Assembly (NCBI GenBank): GCA_009760855.2
Contig: WPIO01000005.1
Coordinates: forward strand, 8,280,001-8,344,000
From: Cristatella mucedo
Lineage: Eukaryota > Bryozoa > Phylactolaemata > Cristatellidae
Length of the DNA: 64,000 bases
Direction: 5' to 3'
The position numbers were made by a program, and so were the translations under genes. The notes below the pieces were generated by a model. It was not told the origin of the DNA, made no database searches, and saw nothing but the letters and a program-made list of their open reading frames with translations. This document shows, one piece after another, positions 3,291 through 56,500 of this stretch (its first letter is position 1; every line of letters starts with the position of its first letter).

Positions 3291-3952
3291 ACAATAAGCT
3301 AACTAGCATGCTCAAACAACCGATAGACTAGGCATGCGGGGTAGTCACGGCGGTGGCCTGCGGCGGCGTCGATGCAACCTGACCGGGGCCCCTCATTGGA
3401 TCCCTACCTAGCGCCTACCTGGTCTCCAGGACACGAACGGCTAGCATAATTCGCAGTGTAAATTGAACTTGGCCGTTTATCGCTGGACACTCAGGCGCGT
3501 TTGAAGTCACTACGCGGCCACATGGCGGGGCACCGTGCCTACACCCAAACATTCCCATATCCTCACTCGATACTCGATCTCTCACATATCCTTGCTTTTA
3601 CCTACTCCCACCAATTTCTCTCTCTCTAGCCCACTCACTTTGCCTCTCTCCGAGCAGCTGCAAAGGTGCCGACGACGACCTCACGGTTTCACGTGGATCC
3701 TCTTTAATAACCGTTATAGGACTAGCCCCACGTGGTCGATGGGTGAGAGCTCAGCTCATCCTCAATCGCCCGGGCCTGCAAGGGGGATCGATCTATTCAT
3801 GCGAGCCAGTCTTTCCATAGTCCACTATCTTGGGCGGATGCTGCATCGCAGCCTAAATACTCCTCCATGAGAGACGAGGTAAAAACCCCAAAGCAACTCC
3901 ACAATCCCCACCGATTTTCGAGAGAAAAAATGTCAGTGCTCTCATTAGGGGA

Positions 3953-4120: not shown

Positions 4121-4274
4121 TATTTATTATTTAACCGCAATGGCACCAGGGCGAAGGGATGGCAACAGCCTGGGCGTCGAACGCCTACTCGAAACGACGC
4201 ACGAGGCCTAGAGGTGTAACGGGAAGAGCGAGAAGTTTGAGGTGGTGTGCGATAAGACATCGTAGCTGCGGTGC

Positions 4275-4689: not shown

Positions 4690-6049
4690 TGGATGCGGTA
4701 ATACGCACAATGCTTAAAATTGATGTTCGAAACTTGGCTTCCCTTTTCTTAGTTTAAATTTGGAAAACCCTTTTTCTCCACTGGCCCCTGAAATTGGCAA
4801 GATTAATAAAATTCTTACTGCCTCAAAAAGATTGGGAGCAATATCTATCAATTTATTTTGCAATAGAAATTGCAAGACGTCTTGGGGATTCACAGTCTGG
4901 GGAAGCTTCCTGGCAATAGCTTGCAGCTCACCATACATTTCCTCTCCATCTAAAGCCTTGCTGTCTCCATGAGTAAAAGACTCCCCCAGAGACTTGCACT
5001 CGCTAAGGATATCCTCTGTGGGTATTTCGGAAATATTGAAGACATCCTACAGGAACTCAAACTATGTGCTGTTTTGTTGAATCTGATTGAACCTTTCAGT
5101 AATAGATTCTACTCCTGCATCTAGAACAGCATAATACAAGTTAACCTTGCAGCTCTCATTGGGATCCTGTACAGCCTTATCCTACGCTTCATAATCAAAC
5201 AGCCTTCCCTTTTTGACTTGCTGATTTGCTTCAAACGTGAGTTCAACCTCCAATTCTTTAGCTATTTGAGTTGCATCCGCAAATAATATATGGAAGCTCT
5301 CTTCACTTCGGATAGTACTGATTTACTTTTTGAAGTTTTCCAGCTATCTAACTCCCAAGTATCAAGTCCGTTAATGTCTGCTGTAGAACTTTGCTAGTGA
5401 CATTGACCTCGAACAAAATGTAGTACGAGGTACGAAGCGGTACTAAAAATGGAAATTTTGCTATGTTATTGGCCAGTGTTTCTGCTTCAGATTTTGCAAT
5501 AGCTCCAGCCATCCCTTTCTGACTCATAAGTTCATATAACTCAATCAGAGCATCGGAAACTTTGCCAAGGTTGTACCTCAGCGTTTTCAGAGCATCAATT
5601 CTACTTCGCGTAGATTTACATTCAGTATCCTCTTTTACACTCCATTTCCTTGCCTTTAATGTTCCTGCAATTTGCGTAGCCTTTTCCTCTCATATTTTCA
5701 ACATCTAATCCCATATCTTGGAGCTGCTTAAACAGAACTTCACTCGTGAATCCACCCGTGGTTTCTTGAAACGGCAAGAAACCAAGAAAATACGCTGTTG
5801 CAACTTGTTGCAAGACTTAAAATACACTGCCTTGATTATCACTCATCTCCGTCTGGTGGTTTCTTCATCTTGCTCATCCAGACATTTTTGCAATGAAATA
5901 TGTTTTGTCTGTGACTTGTCTGGCGAATCAGTACATGATTTTTGCTTCTTAAGGTATTTTAGAAACGAGCCCTTTACTTTTGCTTGCTCGTTGGCATTTT
6001 TAGCCCTTCACTTATAGTTTTGAGCCCCTGACGGTTTCTTATTATCCAT
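4690..6049 (-). pseudogene. Decayed hAT-type (TTF/ZMYM-like, DUF4371) transposase
   Basis: On the minus strand, reading from an ATG at 6049, successive frames recover pieces of a hAT-superfamily transposase of the kind often annotated 'zinc finger MYM-type' or 'TTF-type'. In order they are: an N-terminal Lys-rich segment beginning MDNKKPSGAQN; a central piece 'ETTGGF..LGLDVENMRGKGYAN', matching the conserved 'RGQGYDNG-N-M-G' block; 'SRIDALKTLRYNLGKVSDAL'; 'SYYILFEVNVTSKVLQ'; and the C-terminal dimerisation motif 'NLFEAVRILLILPISGASGE'. Several stops and frameshifts break it (a TGA follows 'QNYK' near the start). The total is well short of the usual 600-800 residues, so part of the middle is deleted. 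I see no intact copy and no clear terminal inverted repeats. Confidence 0.8.
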
Positions 6050-10704: not shown

Positions 10705-11447
10705 AGGCCAAATCATGCATTCACGAAATTCCGTCTTGACTTCTGTAACTCACTGCTTGCTGGCCTACCGGCATGTGCGATCAGGCGATTACAGCCGGTA
10801 CAAAACTCTGCAGCTAGACTTGTCTGTCGTGAGCGTCGCAGTTGCCACATCACACCACTTCTCGCCGATCGGCACTGGGACTACCAGTCAAGCAACGGAT
10901 CGACTTCAAGGTTTTGTCGCTCACTTTTAGGTCTCTTCATTCTTTGGCTGCAGCCTATCTCTCAGATCTACTCCCTCACCAGGCCAAGCATCGTACCACC
11001 AGCTTTTCGGAATCCAACAGTTTACCAGCTTTTCGGAATCCAACAGTTTACCAACACCTCGTACAAACCTCAAATCTTTTGGAGACCGTGCATTTAGCTC
11101 GTATGCTCCCAAAGCCTGGAACTCCCTCCCGACTTGCGTCAGAACATCCCCTGACCTGACCACATTTAAAAAGAATTTAAAAACACACCTATTTAGGACA
11201 GCATTTAGTGGGTCCCTGTGATTCGTCCTTCATGTGCCTATGCGTGCTGACACTGTGCATGCTGCCACTTTCCACATTTGCATGCTGACCCTGTGCATGT
11301 CACCCCTAACCATGTTATTCATGTTGTTTATCAAGCATGATATTACTTACCATTCAATCGCGTTTCCCTTTGCAGCAAATGTAAAGCGCCTAGAAAGAGA
11401 TTGAGTTCTCTGAGGGCGCTTTTTCAAGTGCATTATTATTATTATAG
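10705..11447 (+). mobile_element. L2-like LINE family A, 3' portion
   Basis: It encodes the C-terminal part of the LINE protein ('LDFCNSLLAGLPACAIRR', 'QNSAARLVCRERRSCHITP', 'ALGLPVKQRIDFKVL', 'AYLSDLLPHQAKHRTT') across two frames. The full 3' untranslated region follows. The end carries the stem 'aagcgcctagaaagagatt..gagggcgctt' and an ATT tail (about 11436-11447). A 26-base tandem duplication ('accagcttttcggaatccaa...') sits at about 10999-11050. The 3' tail abuts satellite sequence directly, so the LINE inserted into the satellite block. Confidence 0.85.
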
Positions 11448-12638
11448 CAATGGCATGGGCGAATGTTGCAATCCATGGCAAATCGAAGAGAAATGGCCGC
11501 ACCAAGCTCCAATTCTTGTTCAACGTAACATGTCACTATGTGCGCACATATTTTTTAACCCACTCTGTGTCTTCAATCTTGGGTAATGCATGGCAATTGA
11601 CGGCAATGGCTCGGGCAAGAGGGGCAATCCACTATGATCCATTGCAAATCACCGGACAGTGGCTGGGCTAAGATCAAATTTTTCTTATGTAACACAGCGC
11701 ACTATGTTTAAAGTGCAATCACATCCTTTCAAACACGCACATGCAATAGCGAGTAATTAATGGCAATCGATAGCAATTGCCCGGGCCAATACCCAGCTCA
11801 CGGCAAATCGATGAGAAATTGGCAGTGCGAAGCCCCAATTGTCATTACATATAACTTTCCGCTGCGTCCAAAGTAAATCTATGGCAAATTCAAGCTTCTT
11901 TGCTCGTTAGCCGCCAGAAATGCGCGGCAATCGATAGTAATGGCCCGGACAAATACTGCAATCAACAGCATTCCTCTTCAAAATGCCCCGAAATCGGCTC
12001 CTTAGTGCTCCAATTTTGAATGTATAATGAAAAGCACTCTATTTAAAGTGCAACCATACAATTGTTTACCAATCTCGCTCGTAAAATCTCGGGCAATGCA
12101 TGGCAATCTACGGTAATAGATTGCCTTCAAACAGCAATCCGTTACAAACTATGGAAAACTGACCACAAATTGGCTTCGCGAAGCTCCAATTGTCATTGCG
12201 TGTATTATTTCACTATGTTCAAAGTGAAACCGTGGAATTTTCAAACTTTATTTGCCCGTTGATTGTCAACGATGCACGACAATTGACAGCAAGGGCAGGG
12301 GCCAATACCAAAATCCGAGGCTAATGGACGAGAAGTCTTCTGCACCAATTTCTAATTCTCATTCCACGTTGCATCTCACTGCCCGCGTTTAATTTGCACC
12401 CATTATGCGCGTCCAATAGACGTCAATTCGTGGCAATCGATGGCAATATCCTGGGAAAATACCGTAATCCATAACAGTCCGTTACAAATGGACTGACAGT
12501 TGCTGAGAAAAGCTCCAAATTTTCTCGAGTATTGCAGCATACTGCAATAGAAGTGAAACCACATTCTTTTAAACAACCATGAACGTGCAATCGAGGGCAA
12601 CATGGCAATCAAAGGTAATGGCCCATTTTATACCATAA
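11447..12638 (-). repeat. Diverged satellite array, left block (period ~150-180 bp)
   Basis: The core 'ggcaatcgatggcaatggcc' and its variants recur at about 11451, 11605, 11775, 11939, 12112, 12291, 12443 and 12617. Spacings are 152-179 bp. Between cores lie diverged copies of a unit containing 'gtgcaatcacatcctttcaa'-like sequence. Orientation is called minus relative to the right block, where the core reads 'ggccattgccgtcgattgcc'. Units are strongly diverged, so the array is old. No coding sequence is supported here. Confidence 0.8.
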
Positions 12639-12824
12639 TATATAATTCATTTTATATAGTATGGTATACAATGGGCCATTACCTTTAATTGCCATGCATT
12701 GCCCTCGATTGCACGTTCATGGTTCATGGTTATTTAAAAGAATGTGGTTTCACTTCTATTGCAGTGTGCTGCAATACTCGAGAAAATTTAGAGCTTTTCT
12801 CAGCAACTGTCAGTCCATTTGTAA
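12482..12824. repeat. Long near-perfect palindrome in the satellite
   Basis: The left arm (about 12482-12638) and right arm (about 12660-12824) are reverse complements with only a few mismatches and two small indels. They flank an AT-rich spacer of about 21 bases. Shared arm blocks include 'ctcgagtattgcagca' and its complement, and 'tgaacgtgcaatcgagggca' and its complement. The arms match each other far better than neighbouring satellite units do, so this inverted duplication is much younger than the array. Confidence 0.85.
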
Positions 12825-13400
12825 TTCGTTTCAAATTGGCTGGAAATCGGATGTTTGAAGTTGCATTTATCACACCGCATAACTTTTACTGTGCTCGGAC
12901 ATGCTGTCATTGTGCGCACATTTATCTTGGCCAATGCATGGTAATCGACGGCAGTTACCCGAGACAATAAAGCAATCGATGACGGTCTGTTACAATTACA
13001 AACAAAGCCGGTGGGGGAAGATCCCAATTTTTTGCGTATTACACTGCGCTGTATTAAAAGTGCAACTTTTTTAAAACCGCATCCTTTCAATAAATCATGA
13101 ACGCACATTTGAAGGCAATGCACGGCAATCGGTGGCAATGGCCCGGGAAAATATGGCAATTCATAGCGCACCTGCACAAATAGACCGAAAGTTGCTGGGC
13201 GATGCTCTTAATTAGGTTTCTCGTTCCGGTATACTCTATTTGGTGCATTCTTGAAATGCCATTGTTAATGCTAGCCCTCAGTCCGTGCATTGCAATCAAC
13301 TACAATGGCCCATGCCAATACAGCACTCTTCTGCAATTCGTAGCAGATCGACTGCACGTAGGCTGTGCAAACCTAAAAAATGCATCAGGTATGATATTGC
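12825..13400 (-). repeat. Satellite units continuing after the palindrome
   Basis: Cores recur at about 12953 ('ggtaatcgacggcagttacc'), 13135 ('ggcaatcggtggcaatggcc') and 13304. Orientation is as in the left block. The gap from 12617 to 12953 equals two unit lengths. Confidence 0.7.
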
Positions 13401-13482
13401 ACTTTTTTAAAGTGCGATGTAATGCCTAAAGTAATAAAAATACAGCAATCAAGGCCTGGCAATTTCCGTCGATTGCCACGAG

Positions 13483-13758
13483 GTTCATATGAGTGTAGGT
13501 AAACGGCTATATTCACAAAAGCGGGTGGTGCGATGCTTAGCCTGGTGAGGGAGTATATTGGAAAGGTCGGCTGGGGCCAAAGAATAAAGGGACCTAACAG
13601 TGAGTGACAGAACCTTGAAGGGGATGTGCTGTAAGACTGGGAGCCAGTGCAAGTGGTGTGATGTGGCAACTGCGACGCTCGTGACAGACAAGCCTAGCTG
13701 CCGAGTTTTGCACCGACTGTAAGCGCTTGATTGCACAGGCCGGTAGACCAGCAACCAC
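13483..13758 (-). mobile_element. L2-like LINE family A fragment inside satellite
   Basis: Minus-strand frames give 'PACAIKRLQSVQNSAARLVC', 'HERRSCHITP', 'PFKVLSLTVRSLYSLAPADL' and 'LPHQAKHRTTRFCE'. Both ends are truncated and there is no 3' tail. Confidence 0.8.
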
Positions 13759-13759
13759 T

Positions 13760-14420
13760 CGTATATTGTTTACGTTAACGAGGATCTGTCTCTGCGTGAC
13801 AGTCGAGACAACGAAGCGATCGTTGACAATGACGATCACGTGCATGTAGGTGCACTCATTTACATATTCAACGGCTGCATGTTGTTTCTTCTCAATTTGA
13901 TTTCATATCCTTTTTCTTACACACCTTCTCGCATACTTTAACCGCAAAGGTCTGATTTGGAAAAGAGGTGTACCTGAGTGCTCACCATCTATGCAAAGGA
14001 AATGTGCAAAGACGCATGGATTTTTGAAATGCTAGTTTTTCTTCTGATGTCATTTACGGAACCGATTGATGTAAACGATGGTTTGCTCTCCGTACATAAC
14101 TTCCGTAATAGCTTATGTTACACAGAAATTCATAGAATAGTACTCAACATCATACCATTGTGTTCACAAAAATTGTTCTCATTGTTTGTTGTGCTTACAT
14201 TATTCAAGCACTCGATTTAAAGGCATCATAACAGCGATAAAAACATGTATTGTTCTTACATTATCAGCTGGTTAATAAGATATTTGCAAGATTGATTCAC
14301 GACCTAACCACACCCGGTCATAATTCCCCTTGCTTGAACAGCTCCAGAGCTTCGCAGCTGATCGATATTTGCTTGTCACCTCTAATCGTGGTATGCTTGT
14401 TGGGATTGATGCTACCGTTA
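13760..14420. other. Stretch without recognised features
   Basis: AT-rich sequence between satellite blocks. Plus-strand frames of 74-80 codons at 13978-14474 show no family motif. Confidence 0.5.
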
Positions 14421-14424
14421 ACAA

Positions 14425-14517
14425 TTAGACCATGCTTCTTTTGCAGCAAACGTAAAGTGCCTGGAAAAAGATAAATTTTTCTGAGGGTGTTATACAAATG
14501 TGTTGTTCTTATTATCA
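14425..14517 (+). mobile_element. LINE family A 3' tail
   Basis: 'tgcagcaaacgtaaagtgcc' is followed by 'tggaaaaagataaatttttc' and 'tgagggtgttatacaaatg'. This is a very short 5'-truncated copy of the family A end. Confidence 0.65.
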
Positions 14518-14954
14518 CCGAGAGTTACGGATATGCTTCCTTGTCCGGCAGACAAGGTCCCTAATGGCTTGGCACTGACCTGCAAACTGAAAGTTCACAC
14601 CCCTGGAAAATTCCTTGGAAGCTCTCAAGTAAAGCACGATACAAATAAATACCCATCATTTTCACCTTAACACCACCATAGCTGTACGAGCCTGAATTTT
14701 TACTAATTAATGTAGCTTCTGGCCCTACCAATGATATCTTAGGGCTCACCCAAATTTTAATGCTCACCACACCTAGCTGTGGAGAGCCGCTGACGTGTTA
14801 TTCCGGCTAACCACAAGGTCTGCCTCACCTAGTACGCCCGCTTGACTCATACCCGTGGTCTCATGACTTGAGTTAAGTATGCACACCAATGACGGCAGAG
14901 AAATTACGGGTATTACTTATTTCCCGTATATGCTTACATTTGCACTTTGTGAGA

Positions 14955-15075
14955 TAATGATAATAATACTACTACTACTTTTTATAGTACCCTCAAAGAA
15001 CAGAATCTCATTCTCGGCACTTCACAGATGCTATGTAGACAACATTACCGAATGGTTGATGGGGATAAAAAAACG
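14955..15075 (-). mobile_element. LINE family A 3' tail, minus strand
   Basis: Starts with an interrupted (ATT/ACT)n run, then 'agtaccctcaaagaacagaa' and 'tctcattctcggcacttcac', the reverse complement of the family A 3' end. Confidence 0.65.
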
Positions 15076-15450
15076 TCCTTAATTGCCACTTCCATGCTGC
15101 TTACACAAAACAATAAAACCACTAACCTGCGACGACTATGCAATTATGCACGTTTAGCAAAATGTAGCCTGACTAGATTTGTGAGATCGAGTGCGACGGC
15201 CGCGGCATGCGTACACAATGCAGCATGGCCAGCAAGTGAGCTCTAGTAACCTCTCATTCGTCGTACCTACTTCTGCGGGGCTAGGTTGGTTGGCAACTGG
15301 AGTTGGTCTACGGTGGTTGCGAGAAGCACTCTATGGGCCTACAGCTTGAGCAGTAAGGCATTGGAAGAAACACAGCATGTCAAATGCTGTGCAATAGTCG
15401 ACAAATAAAGTGCAAAATTACATCTACGTTTTCAGGTTACCTTTAACCTT
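15075..15450. other. Stretch without recognised features
   Basis: Between a LINE tail and the right satellite block. I see no supported gene. Confidence 0.45.
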
Positions 15451-18110
15451 GTAGAATTTCATATGCAATTATGCCATGAGAATCAAAGTTTCCTGTAGCC
15501 AATTGATAGATTAGTTTTGAAAGGTTGCAATGAATTGCAGGATTTGCCCGAGGATTAGCTATTGATTGCTGTTCATTGCCCGATATTGAACGCATATTTT
15601 GAGTTGAAATAGAAGTAGAGCACTTTAGAAAGAGTGTGCTTTCATACCAGATGTATAACTTGAGCTTTTCACAGCCGTTTTGTGGTCGATTTGAGGAGGA
15701 TTTCAGAAGATTACTACATTGGCAGGGGCCATTTCCGTTTATTGTAATGCACTGACTGAGAGCTAGCACAAACAATTGAGCACCAAAATAGACTATAACA
15801 CAAAGCAAAATCTAAATGGGAGCATCACCCAGCAATTTTCCATCTTTTTGTGACGGTGCGTTATGGATTGCCGTATTTTCCCGGGCCATTGCCGTCGATT
15901 GCCGTGCATCGCCCTCGATTGTACGTCCGCGATTAGTTGAAAGGATGTGGTTGGACTTTTAATACAATGCCGCGTACTAAGTAAGAACAGTTTGATGTTC
16001 TCCCGCCAGCTTTGTGTCTAATTGTATCAGAGCGTCACAAATTACCGTACTTTTCCGGGCCTTTGCCTTCGATTGACATTTGTTGCACGAGATTGAACGT
16101 GGACAGTGAGTTGAAATTATGTGTACCAACAGTGAACGTTATTTGGCATGGTAGTTGGAGCTTCGAACAGCCGATTTCTAGTCAATATGAAACAGATTTT
16201 GGCCGAAGCCGGGCCATTGCCGTCGATTGCCGTGCATTGCCCTCGATTGTGCGCTCTTAATTGTTTAAAAGGATGTGGTTGCACTTTTAATGCAGTGTAA
16301 TACAATACGCAAAAAAGTTTTAGTTTTTCTCTGCAACTTTTGGTCCATTTGTAACGGGCCGTTGTGGATTGGCGTATTTCCCCGGGCCATTACCGCCGAT
16401 TGCAGTGAATTGCCTTCGATTGAACTCGCACAATGGGTGAAAATTATTCGCTCGCACAGTCGGATGTCATGTAGAGTGAGAGTTGCAGTTTCTTGCAGCC
16501 AATTTTTTTATTTCCTATGGATTGTTTATTTGGCCCAGCCTTTGCTGTGGATTGCCGTGCATTGCTGACAGCTAGCAAGGAAAACAGCTTGAAAATGCCA
16601 TGGCTTAACTTAGCGAAATGTTATAAACAATGGCGATTGGAGCTTCGCACTTCCATTTTCTTGTCACTTTTTCGAGGGTTGGAGTTGTGGCCTGGACCAT
16701 AGCTGTCGATTGCCATTCATTGCTCGAAATTGTATGTGGGCGATTTGTTGAAAGTATGTGATTGCACTTCAAACACAGTTCGCTGTGACCCGTATAAAAA
16801 AATTGATCGTGGCCGGGCCACTGTCCGGTGATTTGCGATGGATCATAATGGATTGCCGTACTTTCCTGGGCCATTGCCGTCGCTTGCCATGGCATTGCCC
16901 ATGTTTGAACGCATAGAGCGGGTTTAAAGTATGGGCGCAGTGATATGTTGTGTGGAATGAGAATTGGTGCTTGGTGCAGCCATTTCTCTTCGATTTTCCA
17001 CGGATTGCGGAATTGATCCTTGCCATTGCTACCAATTGCCGTGCATTGTTGACAATTAGCGTGCCAAATAGCTTGAAAGTTCTACAATTTCACTTTTAGC
17101 ACAAAGAATTATGGAATGCGATGACAATTGGCACTCCGTACCGGCAGCCAATGTGTAGTCTATTTGCCACAGATTGTAGTGGATTGCTGTTTCGAGTAGA
17201 GCCATTGGCGTAGATCGCCATGCATTGCCGGAGATTGTACGAGCGCAATTAGTTAAAATGATGCGGTTGACTTTAACCAGTGTGCTTTTTAATATACATT
17301 TAAAATTGGAGTGGTGCGAAACCGATTTTGGGTCATTTTGTATCAGATTGCTGTAGATTGAGGTATTGGCTCGGCCCATTGCAGTCAATTGCAGTGCATT
17401 GCTTACGAATAGTCTAGGCAATTGCAGTGAAATTATGCAAATACACAATAACCGAAGAGCAGAGCAGTGTGCAATCATAACTTGAGCTTCTAGTGTACGC
17501 GTTTGGTCGCTTTTCGGCGGATGGTGGTGGATTGCGGTATGACACCGGGCCGTTGCAGTCGATTGCAGTGCACTGCTATCGAATGGTCGAAGTGATTACA
17601 GTGAAATTATGTGGAGTAAACATTATTCGAAGATTAGAGCAGCGTGCAGTCATAATTAGAGCTTCTAATGTACGCTTTCTGGTCGCTTTTCGGCGGATTA
17701 CAGTGGATTGAGCTTGATTGAGGCGGATTGCGGGATGGAACCGAGCCGTTGCAGTAGATTGCAATGCATTGCATGAAAATGCGTGTGAACAATAGAGCAA
17801 GATTTTGTGGATGCGCTGTGAACTGAGTTTATTTTTATATCCAATGTAAATTAAAACTTTGCGATGAAGATTTAAGAATGATTTGCAATGAAATAGATGG
17901 GATTTCGGTATTTCCCGGGTCATTTCGGGTGATATCCGCTAATTGCCAGAGTTCTCGAACGCGCAATTTTTGTATTTTACGTGGGTGTGCTCACAACACG
18001 ATGCAATTTAATATGAAAAAACACTGGAGTTGGTACAATTTATTTCTAGTCATTTTTCAATGGATTCGGTGGATAGGAGTAGATTGCAGATAGATAGCGG
18101 TACAGGCCTC
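15450..18110 (+). repeat. Diverged satellite array, right block (period ~150-180 bp)
   Basis: The core 'ggccattgccgtcgattgcc' plus 'gtgcattgccctcgattg' recurs at about 15727, 15883, 16057, 16211, 16384, 16532, 16693, 16868, 17020, 17200, 17373, 17547, 17742 and 17917. Spacings are 156, 174, 154, 173, 148, 161, 175, 152, 180, 173, 174, 195 and 175 bp. Best preserved units continue 'ttgaaaggatgtggttgcac' and 'ggattgccgtattttcccgg'. Some units resemble each other more at two to three unit steps (16532 with 17020, both with a 'ctgacagctagc'-like segment). This suggests a former higher-order arrangement. Orientation is opposite to the left block. Confidence 0.8.
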
Positions 18111-18127
18111 CGGCATTGAAGCAAATT

Positions 18128-18175
18128 TGCATATTTTCGCGTTCGAGCATGTTTGCATATTTTCGCGGTCGAGAT
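18128..18175. repeat. Short tandem duplication
   Basis: 'tttgcatattttcgcgttcg' recurs almost unchanged about 26 bases later ('tttgcatattttcgcggtcg'). Confidence 0.75.
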
Positions 18176-18819
18176 GTGAAATTTAATGAAAAGATAAAAT
18201 CGAACGTGTAATACAATATCGGCCCAAAATTTAAGCTCGGCAGTGCCAACTTCCGGTTGATTTCGGCCTAATTAGAGTGGATTGCGGTAATTCGTGGAAG
18301 CCGGAGTGTAGAGGTAAATAAGCAAACAGATCCGGCCCGCCCGCCTACCTCAAACGGAGTTGTCTCTCCTGCAAAACGTCGTTCGTCTCAAATCCTTACC
18401 CGCGTAGCAACAGGCTACAATATTTTGAAGCTTAGCTTTGAATTTCCAGCTGAAGATGTGCTAAGTAGGCAAACTTTTATAAACATGCGTGCATAATGTA
18501 TGCAATTCGTCAATGGGTTAGCCTTCATTTAGGATTTGATCAAGCTAAGCACAATTTTGCAAACCATGTTCTCCGTGTTGGACAATGATTACTCGAGTTT
18601 TCGCTTGAGGATCTCGACATTAAATGATTTACGTGAGAGAATGGGCCAAACAAAATTCGCAGGGTGCATATTTTATTTTCGTTTGCTCTACTGCGAATGC
18701 TTATGCAGGCCAAATGCAAGATACTAACCTTGGTTTACTTTAAGTTGCTTTGAAGTCCATTTGAGAACGCTTAAGGCGAAATAGCAGCGATTGGCAAGCT
18801 ACGGTTGCATTTGAGTGAT

Positions 18820-26672: not shown

Positions 26673-27089
26673 AGTACCTACTCAGAAAAGCAGCCGATAT
26701 TTGAGTATACTTCGAGGATAGGTGTATATGGATGCCTCTGGTCCTCGCAGCACGGACATTTTTGTGTGCTGCGAAGGCTCGCACGAACCACCAACCTAAC
26801 TGGAGCCTGCCGACCGAGGACGATGGGTTCTTTCAGTCGGGCCCGACCGAATCATTGGAGCCCAGAAGAATTATGTTTGCACTTGCACAGAAGGATTCAG
26901 GTTCGACGAATTACAACAATCCACCACAATCCACTCTAATTAGGTTAACATCGACCAGACGTTAGCATTGCCAAGCTCAGATTGTGCTGATATTGTGGTA
27001 CACGTTCGATTTCATCTATCCACCAAATTTCATGTCGCTTCGGCACTAGCACTTGGAAATAAGCTTTGACGCCGAAAAGTCGAACGAAC

Positions 27090-47500: not shown

Positions 47501-50500
47501 ACTGCGCACGGCATGACCAAGGGCAACAACGACATGCTTTTGTACAGTGCTCCAGTAGACTTTTCTGCTTACCTGTGCATGTTTGAGTATTACTAACCGG
47601 AGGTCTTTCTAAGCCGCGGCCAGCGGAGTTGTGTGCTTTTGCCTTAGAATGATAATTGTGCGCTTTTGCATGCTTACCCAAGCGTTATACATTGCTTTCC
47701 ATTGACTATTGGTTATTGCTGCTCTTTCAGCAACTTGTAAAGTGCATGTATAGAGACCAAGTTCTCGTAGGGCAACACGAAAAGACATTACTTTGTTAGT
47801 GTATATGTTTGACCTCTACTTTAGTTCTTGTATATTGGGGCATTTTCTCTCTTGATTTTTAAGGGAAATCTCTAGACGAGCTTATTAATTGTGGCTGTGC
47901 TTTACATGTTATATTACGTCTTCCCATCCCATAGCTGAATTGGAAAGGTTGATTGCTTTCCTTATTAGTCTGCTGTGCAACAGCTTGCAACGATGCTCAT
48001 CTGGGCATATGATCGATCATGTTATGTTTATTGGTGTTTTTTTGCAAGCAAACCTAGAAGTCTTGTCCATCTGACTCATTCTTAGACATCGTGATGCATT
48101 CTCCTGGTTTTTTCGTGGTTTTGCTGCTGGCAATTGTTTGTCACAGTACAGTCCTGTCATCAGCTGTCTGCTACGACTCTTATTTGCCACCTGTTGGCGG
48201 CATTCATGCTTCATCCAGTCATAGGTTGCAGTATCATGTAGCGGGGAGGTTAGAGCATTCGGAAGCATTCTTGGTGCGATTGCCGTTAGCTGACATCTCA
48301 TGGCGATTTTTTTTTATGCAGTTTTTCCTGTTATAGTACCGAGTCGCTTTTAAAATATCTGTTGCAGAAAACGCCCGAACCTTTCATCACGACCCATCTT
48401 GGTGCAGGGCAAGACGTAGCAATAACTGACTTTCGGTGGAATCCTGAAGAGAGTGATGTTTTTGCTGCCTCTCTGTCAAATGGATCACTCTTCGTAGCCA
48501 AATGCACTTTTCCTGGACATATTGACCTTAAGGAGTTGGCTCCTCAGTCAGTAGGAAGTTCTGCTCAACCGCATGGTGATGATATAACCTGCATTTGTTG
48601 GAGTCCAAAGGGGAAGCAGCTTGTTGCAGGCCGAGCTGACGGCTTACTCGTGCAGCTTAGCAAAACGCTGGAAGTCAAGGCTCGCGTGCCTGCACCACCT
48701 GGTATATCTAAGGGGGCAGGTATGTTTCCTCCACAGTCTTTAACTTTTCTTTGATAGGTCTCGTATGTAGATAGTCAGTGCTCAGATTTTGGATTGCTGA
48801 TCATGGTTGGACGATTTTTTTTAATTATCTGTACCCCACACATCTATTACTTTACATTAAAAAATCACAACTTGGCATGATTTTAAATCTTAAAAATGTT
48901 CTTGAACTAAAGGGTGCCACACTGATACCACAAGATAAAATGTGTGTTGTTCTGTTTGCAATGCAATATTAGAGAGTGTCGGCCACCCTTCGAAATGTCT
49001 TCCTCTGAATTATAATTCGTAGCATGTCCTGAGTTTGCATGAACTTGAAGTATGATGCCACCAAATATTATTTCGAAAAATCATGACTCAAAAGCTAAAT
49101 GTGCTCTAAAAACTAGGCAAAATGAGCTGTATTTGTGTTTTTAGCTCCTTGCAAGCAAACCTATTAAACACCATTTGCCTCTAATAGTACTTTGCGATTG
49201 GAATTCGTCCTTAGTATACTTCTAATAACCTGTGATGATTTGGCCCAGTGGTCAGGGTGCTTGCTCGACCAAGTTCAAGCTGAATGTATTTGTGGTTGGT
49301 ACTGGATTGTGCAGCTTCAGTTAGGTGAGGTTCGTCTGAGTCTGGCCTGTCATCACCCTCGACCAAACGAATAATGCTGCACCAATGAAATCATGACTTA
49401 TTATGAACACAAACAGTGGCTTGCCTAGTGTCTCTTATATTTCCCCTTTCTATCTAAGTTCTTACACTTGAGGTTCATAATATATTTGTGCTCTGTGTCG
49501 TGTTGGGCTCTTGCTTTTCAGGTCGCAAGACTGCTATCACCATCCCGTGCTATGTCTTTGTTATTATGGTTAAGTCAATCCACATAGGCTGAGGGTCTGA
49601 ACAAATTCTGTACAAGTTACCGTGGTGAGTCTGAACTGGGTGGGTCTTCATTTAAACATGCTTGTAGCCGGAGAATGGCTAGTACATTAGTGTCCGAAGT
49701 CACCGGTAGTAGGCTTGGCTCACGAGGCCGACAATACATTCTTGCTTTTTGAGGGCTTCGATATTTCGTAAGGATATTATGGGTCAATAAACTCAATATG
49801 TATAGGTTCAGTCACATTGTTTTTTCCACATTTTTACTTGGGCCAAACTGGTATAAATCAATTTGGTGCTGACACAGCTTAAGACAGAAAATAGCATTAC
49901 GTGGCATGCTAAGCTGAAACTCAAGCTTGAAAAGAAATTTACTACTTTGCTTTTTGGGCCAGCAGACTGAAGTTGGTGTGGAGACTACATGTTACCCATC
50001 TACTGCAGGGGGGGGGGCGACACTCGGTCGACTAGGAGGAACTGTGCACCCATTAGTTCATGCATTCATCAAGGACTTTTTTTTTTAAATGACGAATACA
50101 GTTGACTGGTATCTGCAGCTGCAGGTAGTGCCTTAGCAACAAACTTATCTTTGCAACTCTAATGGTGTTGCCTTCCGAGATGGATGGTAACGTGAGGTTT
50201 ATTATCATGCCTAAATAATATAGGTAGTAGAGTTCCTACTGTTTTTCAACTCTTTCCTGATCTTGATTTGGATTGTTTCTAACCATACATTCTCTTTAAA
50301 TTGGCACACTATTTCATAAAGTAATACATTACATACACAGATTACTTGTAATGAAAAATATTCAGACATACCTTCATATTGTTCAACTGTCGAACCTTTG
50401 TAAAGGCTCTTCTGCTGCTATATAAATGAGACTATTGAATCAAATAAGCATTTTGCTCTCTCGCCCCGTCACAGCATGAATGCTGAGAACAATGACGCAC

Positions 50501-53500: not shown

Positions 53501-56500
53501 GCCGGTGACGTTCAGCCGACCATGGTCGGTGTGTATCTAGCTGTAAGTGCTATTTTATCTTAGGTTTTCTATAATTGTTGATATATGTGTCTATCTGTGC
53601 ATCTGTATTTCATTATTTGCCAATCTTGTATTGCAGAAAGACGGACAGGTGACAGCCTACCACAATTATGGTGACTTGTGTTTTGGCTCGTCAGATACTG
53701 ACCAGCAATGTGGCTACTATATGGTTCAGATACCAAAGTGGTGAGCAAATCATGTCTGGAGCTGTGTAACTGCTATAGGCAATTATGTCACCAGCATTTT
53801 TAGAATAAGTGCATTCTGGCTTTTTTATAGGGATATTATCTTGGCCTTGTCAGCTACATCCATCAGCAGCTGTGTCCTTGGAAAGGTTTCAGCCGAACAG
53901 GTATTGGAGTGGCTCGTGTGTTGGTTTATCTTGATTAATTTATTAAGTTATTTTGCCTTGTTACATCTTAGCCTGATGTGTGCCACAATGCAACGAATTT
54001 TAGCCGTGGCCGTGGCAACCATGGACGCTTGACGATTCCGGCCAGATTGCAATGCCACTTCAGCAATCGGATGATAATGACAGCTTCCCTCGTGGCTTAG
54101 CACTAACTCTTACTGCACAAAATGAAGTTCCCGGCCAAGGTAGGATCGTGTATGGTTGCTCTTCTAGTTTTCACTGTGGAAACATATTATATTATTTGCT
54201 ATTTAGCGAAATTCATTTTATGCCTGTACATGCAACTATTATTTTTTCTAGGCCCAGGACTGTCATATCCTGCTAGTCCGGTTGTATTTGTCCTTAGTAC
54301 TGAGGGGCTGCTCATGCCGTACCATGTTATCAACAGCTTGCCTGCTTCATCCTCAATCACCAAGCCACCCGAACAGCTGTCCTCTGCTGGGATAGAGTTT
54401 GTGAATTCTCCGCCGACTACAGGAACTGCTGATCGTGCTACTGTTGCTGCCTCTGCATATCCTGGAATTTCGCTACTACAATCAGCCAGTGGTGGTGTGC
54501 TGAGTAATAAACCAGCCAGATTGCCTGATTTTTTTGGTAGTAGCTCAGGTCAAGGCATGGGATCAATGCCACACAATAGTGCATATCCATCCTTGGGTGA
54601 GTCAACTGCTGCTGTGCCAGTGAGTACTTTAAAACCACAGTTGATTCCACCAGTGGTGTCACAATCACAGCAAGTCCCACCTGCTTACAACGAAGCTCCT
54701 TCGGGTATGCTTACTTTCTCGAAGACCCCCATGGGAGTGCCAGCACTCAATAAGCCACCAGCTGAGAGTGGGCTGACGCAGCATGTTCAACTCGAGCAGA
54801 AAACGTCATCAACTGCCTCAATGCCTGCACCTACCTCATCTTTGCCTGCACGGTCCATTGAACTGGAGCCCAAGAGTGTGACAACTGATAGTTTGTATTC
54901 AAGAGCAATTCAGGAAGAAGTAAGTGCTACATTTTATGCGTTTAATGAACATTGTTGAAGTATGCCTATTCTGGATCCCTTGATTATTGCTCTGCACCAT
55001 GTGATTTTTCGCAGGTAACTAATTTTGCGAAAGAAGTAGCAGCACTGCGGATGTCATGCCAAAGGAATCAAAATGTTAGTGATATTGTCGGTTCAAAAGA
55101 AGAGTTTATTGCCCTTAGTAAGCAACTTGGTGAACTGACCGAAGATGGAAGAAACATTATGGCAACTGTCCAGGTAAATAAATACTAGCTGATTTAACAC
55201 CCTCTTTTGTATAGCGACAGAAGAGCCTTGACGGCTATCACCGCCGCTTGCAGTGGCAATAAAGGATTGCCATCCCTGGATTCGAACCCGCGACTTCGGA
55301 ACCGAGGTCGTGAAAAGCAACCGCCTTATGTAGTATGCCATCACGGCATCACAGATATATTTTTCTACTTGTAGCATAGCTGTGGTCCCTGGGGTAAAGT
55401 GGCTGGTTCTGATCATACAAGGATTTAACGAATACCTTACTGCCTTTGATTTCTCATTAATTAGAGGTTGTTTGTTCGTTCACATATTTGTCTAGGCTTG
55501 CTAGTCTGTAGAGCTCCGTACTTCTGCTAGTATTTCAAGACCCAGGTCTTAGGTTTGAGTTCTTCTACAGGCTTTATTGCCTGCTGCAGGTGGGTGATGG
55601 CCTGGCTCCTCTGCTGCTGCATAAGTGAAGCTGTGGATCAGACGATTGTTGCTTCTTTTTTTTTTACTGATCTGTATGCTTCCTAATACATTATTGGGAC
55701 ATCTCCCTTCTCTAAGGTATGCTCACAGCATGGCTAGTGTCTCGGGTTATCATTGTCACTGTTTTGTGTTAAGCATAAATGTTGTTTGAACTCATGGCAA
55801 CCTTATGATGTAGTAGGCAGCCTTACCTCCGTAAAGCCTCTAAAGAAAATGTTGAGTTAAAGTCTGTGAATATTAGCCCATAAACTGAGTACGGCCAAAA
55901 CTTGGTTTTAAATGCTTCTCTGGATAAGGGTTTTTCAAAGGCTTTTAAATCTGCGATCGTTCGACCGATACTTGGTCCGAATTGATTTAAGAGTTCCTAC
56001 CAAACGATTGCTCAGTCACCCTTCTTGTTTTTCAAAGGTTCTTGAAAGACTGTCTCTGAGCTGCTTGCATAACACACTGACTAATAAATTTTCAGAAAAT
56101 TTTCGGTCTGGATTCAGCGACACTACGAAAAAATTGCTCTCAATTAGACCAACAAGATTCTGAGCACCAGCAGTGATAATAGTGTCGCTCCCCTGGTTCT
56201 GTTTGATCTGTCAACAGTGTTTGACACTACTAATCACAATATCATAATTGAGTGATTGAGCACCGCGATCAGCCTAGCAGACAAGTTGCTAGAGTAGTTC
56301 AAATCCAAACTTATGCGGTCGTGTTCAATCAATGTCGTGGGGTGGTCATAGCTTATCCATGAGACCGGTCACCTGTAGAGTTCCACTGAGGTCTGTTCTA
56401 GGTTCTTTGCTGTTCTCCATTTATACCGAGCCCCTGTGAAAATTGGCTTCGCGCTCATGGGATCAGCTATCACTTCTTCACATTTTGATAACTTGTCTGC

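Follow-up and report, generated by a model that had tools for sequence, protein, structure and literature searches.

What is the array of roughly 170-bp units that lies between positions 11447 and 18110 of a 64,000-nucleotide stretch of the Cristatella mucedo genome (contig WPIO01000005.1; hereafter the window, meaning this whole stretch)? The initial annotation described an old, strongly diverged array in two facing blocks and suggested that it could be a former pericentromeric or dispersed satellite. We posit that the two blocks and the spacer between them are very probably a single old, nonautonomous DNA transposon of the foldback type with long terminal inverted repeats (TIRs), so that an apparent two-block satellite is explained as one transposon. 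The family to which it belongs is mobile, ends in a fixed tip, and duplicates about 9 bp of its target site.

A dispersed mobile family with a fixed tip

The repeat units themselves are readily recovered. When the window was scanned with a 19-nt core motif, GCCATTGCCGTCGATTGCC, at up to 3 mismatches, 16 matches were found, all between 11592 and 17567, against an average of 0 in 100 shuffles; at up to 5 substitutions, the left block contains ten minus-strand and three plus-strand matches and the right block 13 separate plus-strand sites. Homology among units is not confined to the core but takes in ungapped families of 110-120 nt. Compared head-on, the two blocks are inverted repeats of each other, with one alignment of 1190 bp (66%, E 1.6e-131) and another of 600 bp (70%, E 9.8e-83). 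The unit length, the facing blocks, and the strong divergence, all proposed at the outset, are borne out.

Is the array a local expansion or one member of a larger family? Across the genome examined (572 Mb, 688 contigs), there are 270 exact matches to the core, versus 0 for the control, and 5541 when up to 3 mismatches are allowed, versus 95. The 100 of the 270 exact matches whose positions were listed are spread over many contigs and cluster only in ones to threes. Twenty loci of 10 kb were fetched, picked via core and monomer matches; in 11 of them a minus block is followed by a plus block (at least two matches each), the remaining nine being mostly of one orientation. The longest run in one orientation among these loci is about 18 matches. 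The family is dispersed, in several hundred copies.

Copies end in a common sharp tip, …GGTAATTCGTCGAACC, past which their flanks differ. The exact tip has 238 genome matches (117 forward and 121 reverse; control, 0), and at 2 mismatches there are 1204 matches versus 398 in the control, an excess of about 800 tips. Among the 39 other places scored, alignment of a 198-base query spanning the tip breaks off at position 174-179 in 35 and at 151-163 in four. Tips are also found in less regular settings. At 26900-27074, the window has another tip of this family, about 175 bp long and 76-81% identical to other tips, and the window scan shows no monomers adjoining it; in locus L013, successive tips at 546, 1456, 6463, and 7609 mark elements that lie within or next to each other; and L038 has two outward-facing tips 18 bp apart (475-494).

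Do these tips mark the ends of discrete insertions? Ten copies with two tips (L011, L013, L014, L021, L029, L032, L033, L034, L035, and C44) were used in a duplication test, in which 21 offset-length pairs were tried and flanks re-paired among copies served as the control. The flanks show a duplication of the target site, about 9 bp long and set one base off the tip: 52 of 90 positions are identical, versus 27.4 when re-paired (0 of 5000). Only one register, that of length 11 at offset 0, 9 at offset 1, and 7 at offset 2, reaches 0 of 5000; the runner-up stands at 118. Without L029, the result is 45 of 81 versus 23.7 (0 of 20000). Four copies (L011, L014, L029, and L032) match at 7 of the 9 positions, and L033 and L035 match at 6. 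In addition, two of nine joined flanks cross the junction in another fetched locus, that is, they have an empty counterpart. The empty site of L032 is L024 3822-4103 (80%), and that of L011, an insertion inside another repeat, is seen in L031 (65%), L016, L017, and L028. The features expected of a foldback element, namely, long TIRs of direct subrepeats, discrete insertion with a target-site duplication, and a dispersed multicopy family, are all found here.

Several observations pull the other way. Two of the ten copies have no duplication (L013, 2 of 9 positions; C44, 1 of 9); L021 matches at 5 of 9; and L034 matches at 4 of 9 unless extra G at its left tip are counted as tip, in which case a perfect 9-mer stands on both sides. 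The register was spotted by eye in some copies before it was tested, the outer of the two left tips of L029 was the one taken, and lengths of 7 and 11 in the same register likewise give 0 of 5000. The evidence for the duplication comes from the ten other copies, the left tip of the window copy being lost. Finally, seven of nine joined flanks have no empty site among the fetched loci, the site of L011 is diverged with gaps near the junction, and that of L032 has a 4-base gap beside it.

How does a satellite fare against the same data? Diverged tandem units near nucleosome length, present in two orientations, are what decayed satellite DNA inverted into two facing blocks would look like. Dispersed copies with the same minus-core-plus order, a common tip, a duplication, and empty sites argue against it, as does the short length of the one-orientation runs noted above. 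Long homogeneous arrays with homogenization within the array, as expected of a satellite, are likewise not what we find: monomers of the same arm have a mean identity of only 0.528 (177 monomers, 18 arms), and 170 of 176 are closer to the arm of another element than to their own. We therefore regard a satellite origin of this locus as very improbable, although long arrays may exist on contigs beyond those sampled; of the initial proposal, the dispersed repeat stands, and the satellite and pericentromeric parts fall. To our knowledge, Helitrons have neither TIRs nor a target-site duplication. With TIRs at both ends and a duplication present here, carriage of a satellite-like array by a Helitron or Helentron, of the kind reported in the available text on oyster repeats (PMC7492417), is still less credible and can be given almost no weight. 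The foldback transposon remains by far the best explanation, and it carries a warning: satellite surveys based on monomers can count transposon arms.

The copy in the window

The features of the window copy and of the LINE (long interspersed nuclear element) beside it are as follows.

10713..11445, plus strand: LINE 3' end with ATT tail, adjoining the left arm and outside the element; 88.6% to L019 5715-5007, with many further loci matching
11445..13430, minus strand: left arm (TIR), about ten diverged monomers; 11445-12624 inverted relative to 17031-15883, and 12823-13415 relative to 16198-15620
12482..12824, no strand: palindrome within the left arm; 12482-12584 versus 12722-12824, 97% complementarity along 103 nt, and 93% along 45 nt for its inner arms
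13431..15600, no strand: internal core, common to other copies, in which no coding region was detected; 13480-15393 aligns with L018 6773-4855 (76.7%, alignment of 1944 bp)
13498..13757, minus strand: LINE-derived piece in the core; 79.5% to window 11026-10754
13816-18074: core plus right arm; aligns with L021 3993-8221 (75.8% over 4323 bp)
14370..14515, plus strand: LINE 3'-end piece in the core; 68% to window 11294-11445
14956..15057, minus strand: second LINE 3'-end piece in the core, in opposite orientation; 69% to window 58163-58061 and similar places
~15600..18302, plus strand: right arm (TIR), about 13-14 monomers with a spacing of 152-196 bp
18286..18301, plus strand: right tip, GGTAATTCGTGGAAGC, preserved, with 2 changes relative to the family tip

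The right end of the array had been placed at 18110; it actually lies at about 18302. The right arm is collinear with L014, L015, L012, and L017 (72-76% over 2.1-2.4 kb). Based on its alignment to the right arm, the left arm has lost its outer ~1.27 kb together with the tip, and it starts directly at the LINE 3' end; a search of the window found no trace of the lost tip and outer arm, either upstream of the LINE or elsewhere.

The LINE fragments noted earlier in the spacer are real, and because 7 of the 20 loci (L010, L012, L018, L020, L021, L022, and L024) share long parts of the spacer, in alignments that run for over 290 bp outside the first LINE piece, they belong to the element. L009 is linked to the window core via L018 and L010, and shorter stretches occur in L011, L013, and L016. 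The first LINE piece lies within longer core alignments to L018, L022, and L024 and was therefore present before these copies spread. As to whether the core is a coding region, ten open reading frames (four from the window and six from L019, L021, and L022) gave no Pfam family, in a scan that we judge to be not very sensitive because a LINE-like frame of 266 amino acids in L019, recognized by eye, was among the ten and also went unmatched. Scanning the window for Rfam families and tRNAs yielded no matches.

Age of the array and possible exchange between arms

When did the units diverge, before or after the family spread? We compared 177 monomers from 18 arms of 14 elements, leaving out units spaced outside 140-200 bp. 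The best match of a monomer averages 74.6% in the arm of one other element versus 62.6% in its own arm. Distances to the tip are correlated between a monomer and its best partner (r = 0.78) and differ by no more than 87 bp for 61 of 177 monomers versus 12.8 at random; that is, the order of monomers is common to the arms of different copies. Because monomers resemble the arms of other elements more than their own arm, the array is older than its dispersal: it diverged first and spread afterwards.

The same comparison bears on the spacing pattern. Right-block spacings at up to 6 substitutions run 166, 157, 174, 154, 173, 152, 158, 174, 152, 179, 174, 174, and 196 bp, and those of the left block are 154-184 bp plus one double step of 336. 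The alternation reported at first sight between about 155 and 174 bp is present in the right block. Strings like 150/174 reappear in the arms of other copies, and the alternation thus seems to have come down with the arm instead of arising through local satellite turnover. The suggested likeness at steps of two to three units proved weak: mean identity over the 18 arms is 0.540, 0.550, and 0.567 at lags 1, 2, and 3, a faint three-unit trace in place of a higher-order repeat. Could the monomers be copies of the tip, serving as extra binding sites? The case is weak. The tip agrees with the monomer consensus at 15 of 25, 18 of 30, and 20 of 35 places, levels reached by 120, 32, and 39 of 3000 shuffles, respectively, and the last 20 bases show nothing.

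Arms vary widely among copies. Ten delimited copies (the tips of L025 estimated, C44 left out) are 2.75-6.5 kb long, and their inverted arms measure from 72 bp in L035 through about 400 bp in L032 and L034 to as much as 2.1 kb in L013, the subrepeats being 140-200 bp in length. Nor is the array between the tips always oriented alike, L032 having plus matches only and L034 minus matches only. In L014, the two arms are 94.5% alike over 1392 bp, and the outer 800 bp has an identity of 0.915 to the partner arm versus an average of 0.74-0.75 to other arms. The two arms match each other best in L014, L029, L033, and L034, as does one arm of L032 its partner; against exchange, this does not hold for L011, L013, L021, and L025, in a test that register-shifting indels may weaken. 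On its left side, L029 has two left tips. Inward from the outer one come 340 bp of arm and then 47 bp of the right-hand flank, inverted, before the second tip is reached. This flank copy (537-583 versus 3897-3943, in inverted order) differs at one base, and 7 of the 9 target-site bases agree between the outer left tip and the right tip.

L014 and L029 suggest exchange from arm to arm. In this model, the arms of one copy would exchange sequence because they are able to pair as a hairpin, and arrays would thereby lengthen, shorten, and flip. We speculate further, and only tentatively, that the opposite arm of an insertion may serve as the template from which an arm is rewritten, the copying running past the tip into host DNA, such that host flanks would then lie inside the element and be carried along at the next jump. 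L029 is the sole case resembling the product of such copying; it gives a tangible example of the way in which foldback arms may be altered and acquire host DNA.

Known foldback families and the transposase

The FB elements of Drosophila and the TU elements of sea urchin have the foldback shape and tandem subrepeats in their arms, the subrepeats being shorter than here, a likeness of form and not of compared sequence. As far as the available descriptions go, the closest known systems are Tetris, Tm1, and Galileo, and Tetris is the nearest described case. Tetris, a foldback transposon of Drosophila virilis, has TIRs with tandem units of ~220 bp and a duplication of 8-10 bp; its complete copies are described as lacking conserved open reading frames, its authors found no transposase and linked it to the Mutator superfamily without definite classification, and its array gave rise to a satellite (PMC4079207). 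It thus resembles the present family in the arrays of its arms, the lack of conserved reading frames, the similar duplication, and the lack of a transposase. Compared by description only, Tetris units are ~94% alike in arrays of up to 66, whereas units here are on average ~53% alike within an arm, have a shared order, and in the fetched loci form runs of up to ~18.

Tm1, a Mutator/Foldback element of root-knot nematodes, has composite TIRs that vary in length and contain internal repeats, with arms ~93% alike on average, its duplication is most commonly 9 bp, and the available text ties it to Mutator by title and transposase (PMC3169594). Composite, variable TIRs and a 9-bp duplication are common to both families; the internal repeat of Tm1, by its description, is ~14 bp, and some members have a putative transposase, whereas the present family has monomers of ~174 bp and no coding member was found. 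Galileo, as described, has long TIRs that differ greatly in length (18-1250 bp), tandem repeats in some subfamilies, and chimeric copies without matching flanks (PMC3573991); it shares arm-length variation and internal tandem repeats with the family described here and differs in its P superfamily membership and 7-bp duplication. The tip and core letters were not found in the literature searched, a search that Dfam and Repbase lay outside, and no described family was recognized as the same. This is a new family of foldback transposons, set apart from Tetris, Tm1, and Galileo by their descriptions, and it differs from known ones in the age of its monomers and their shared order. With it, foldback transposons gain a family that numbers several hundred copies and whose arm repeats are old and ordered.

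Which enzyme moves these elements? We predict that a transposase supplied in trans would cut at the tips and insert with a 9-bp stagger. We infer, on balance, that it most likely belongs to the superfamily of Mutator-like elements (MULEs), the length of the duplication being the sole basis: at about 9 bp, it falls within the 8-10 bp, typically 9, of MULEs. The genome has 59 MULE matches, the best with an open frame of 453 amino acids and its own TIRs of ~144 bp. Against this assignment, no autonomous or coding family member was found, and the two of the 59 MULE loci examined (L039 and L040) carry other TIRs, that of L039 having in common with the family tip only the 9-letter word GGTAATTCG. 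Movement by another superfamily (P/Galileo-like, hAT-like, or other) is a lesser though real possibility, given that no transposase has been linked to the family here. The hAT duplication is 8 bp. The ~9-bp duplication seen here also differs from the 7 bp given for Galileo (PMC3573991), and we continue to favor a Mutator-like enzyme.

The MULE gene of L039, which stands beside an array, was considered as the autonomous member and rejected: it has its own inverted repeats (4160-4244 and 6182-6105), and none of the family's monomers turned up on its far side. In both L040 (2493-4652, with the 453-residue frame) and L039 (4160-6182), the MULE genes are flanked by inverted repeats composed of short direct repeats.

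Elsewhere in the window, pieces on the minus strand at 4714-5689 resemble, by eye, a hAT-type transposase or a zinc-finger relative. A reading frame at 48290-48751 resembles NUP214 chains of known structure (E ~1e-10), and 54107-54958 looks by eye like a further part of a NUP214-like gene.

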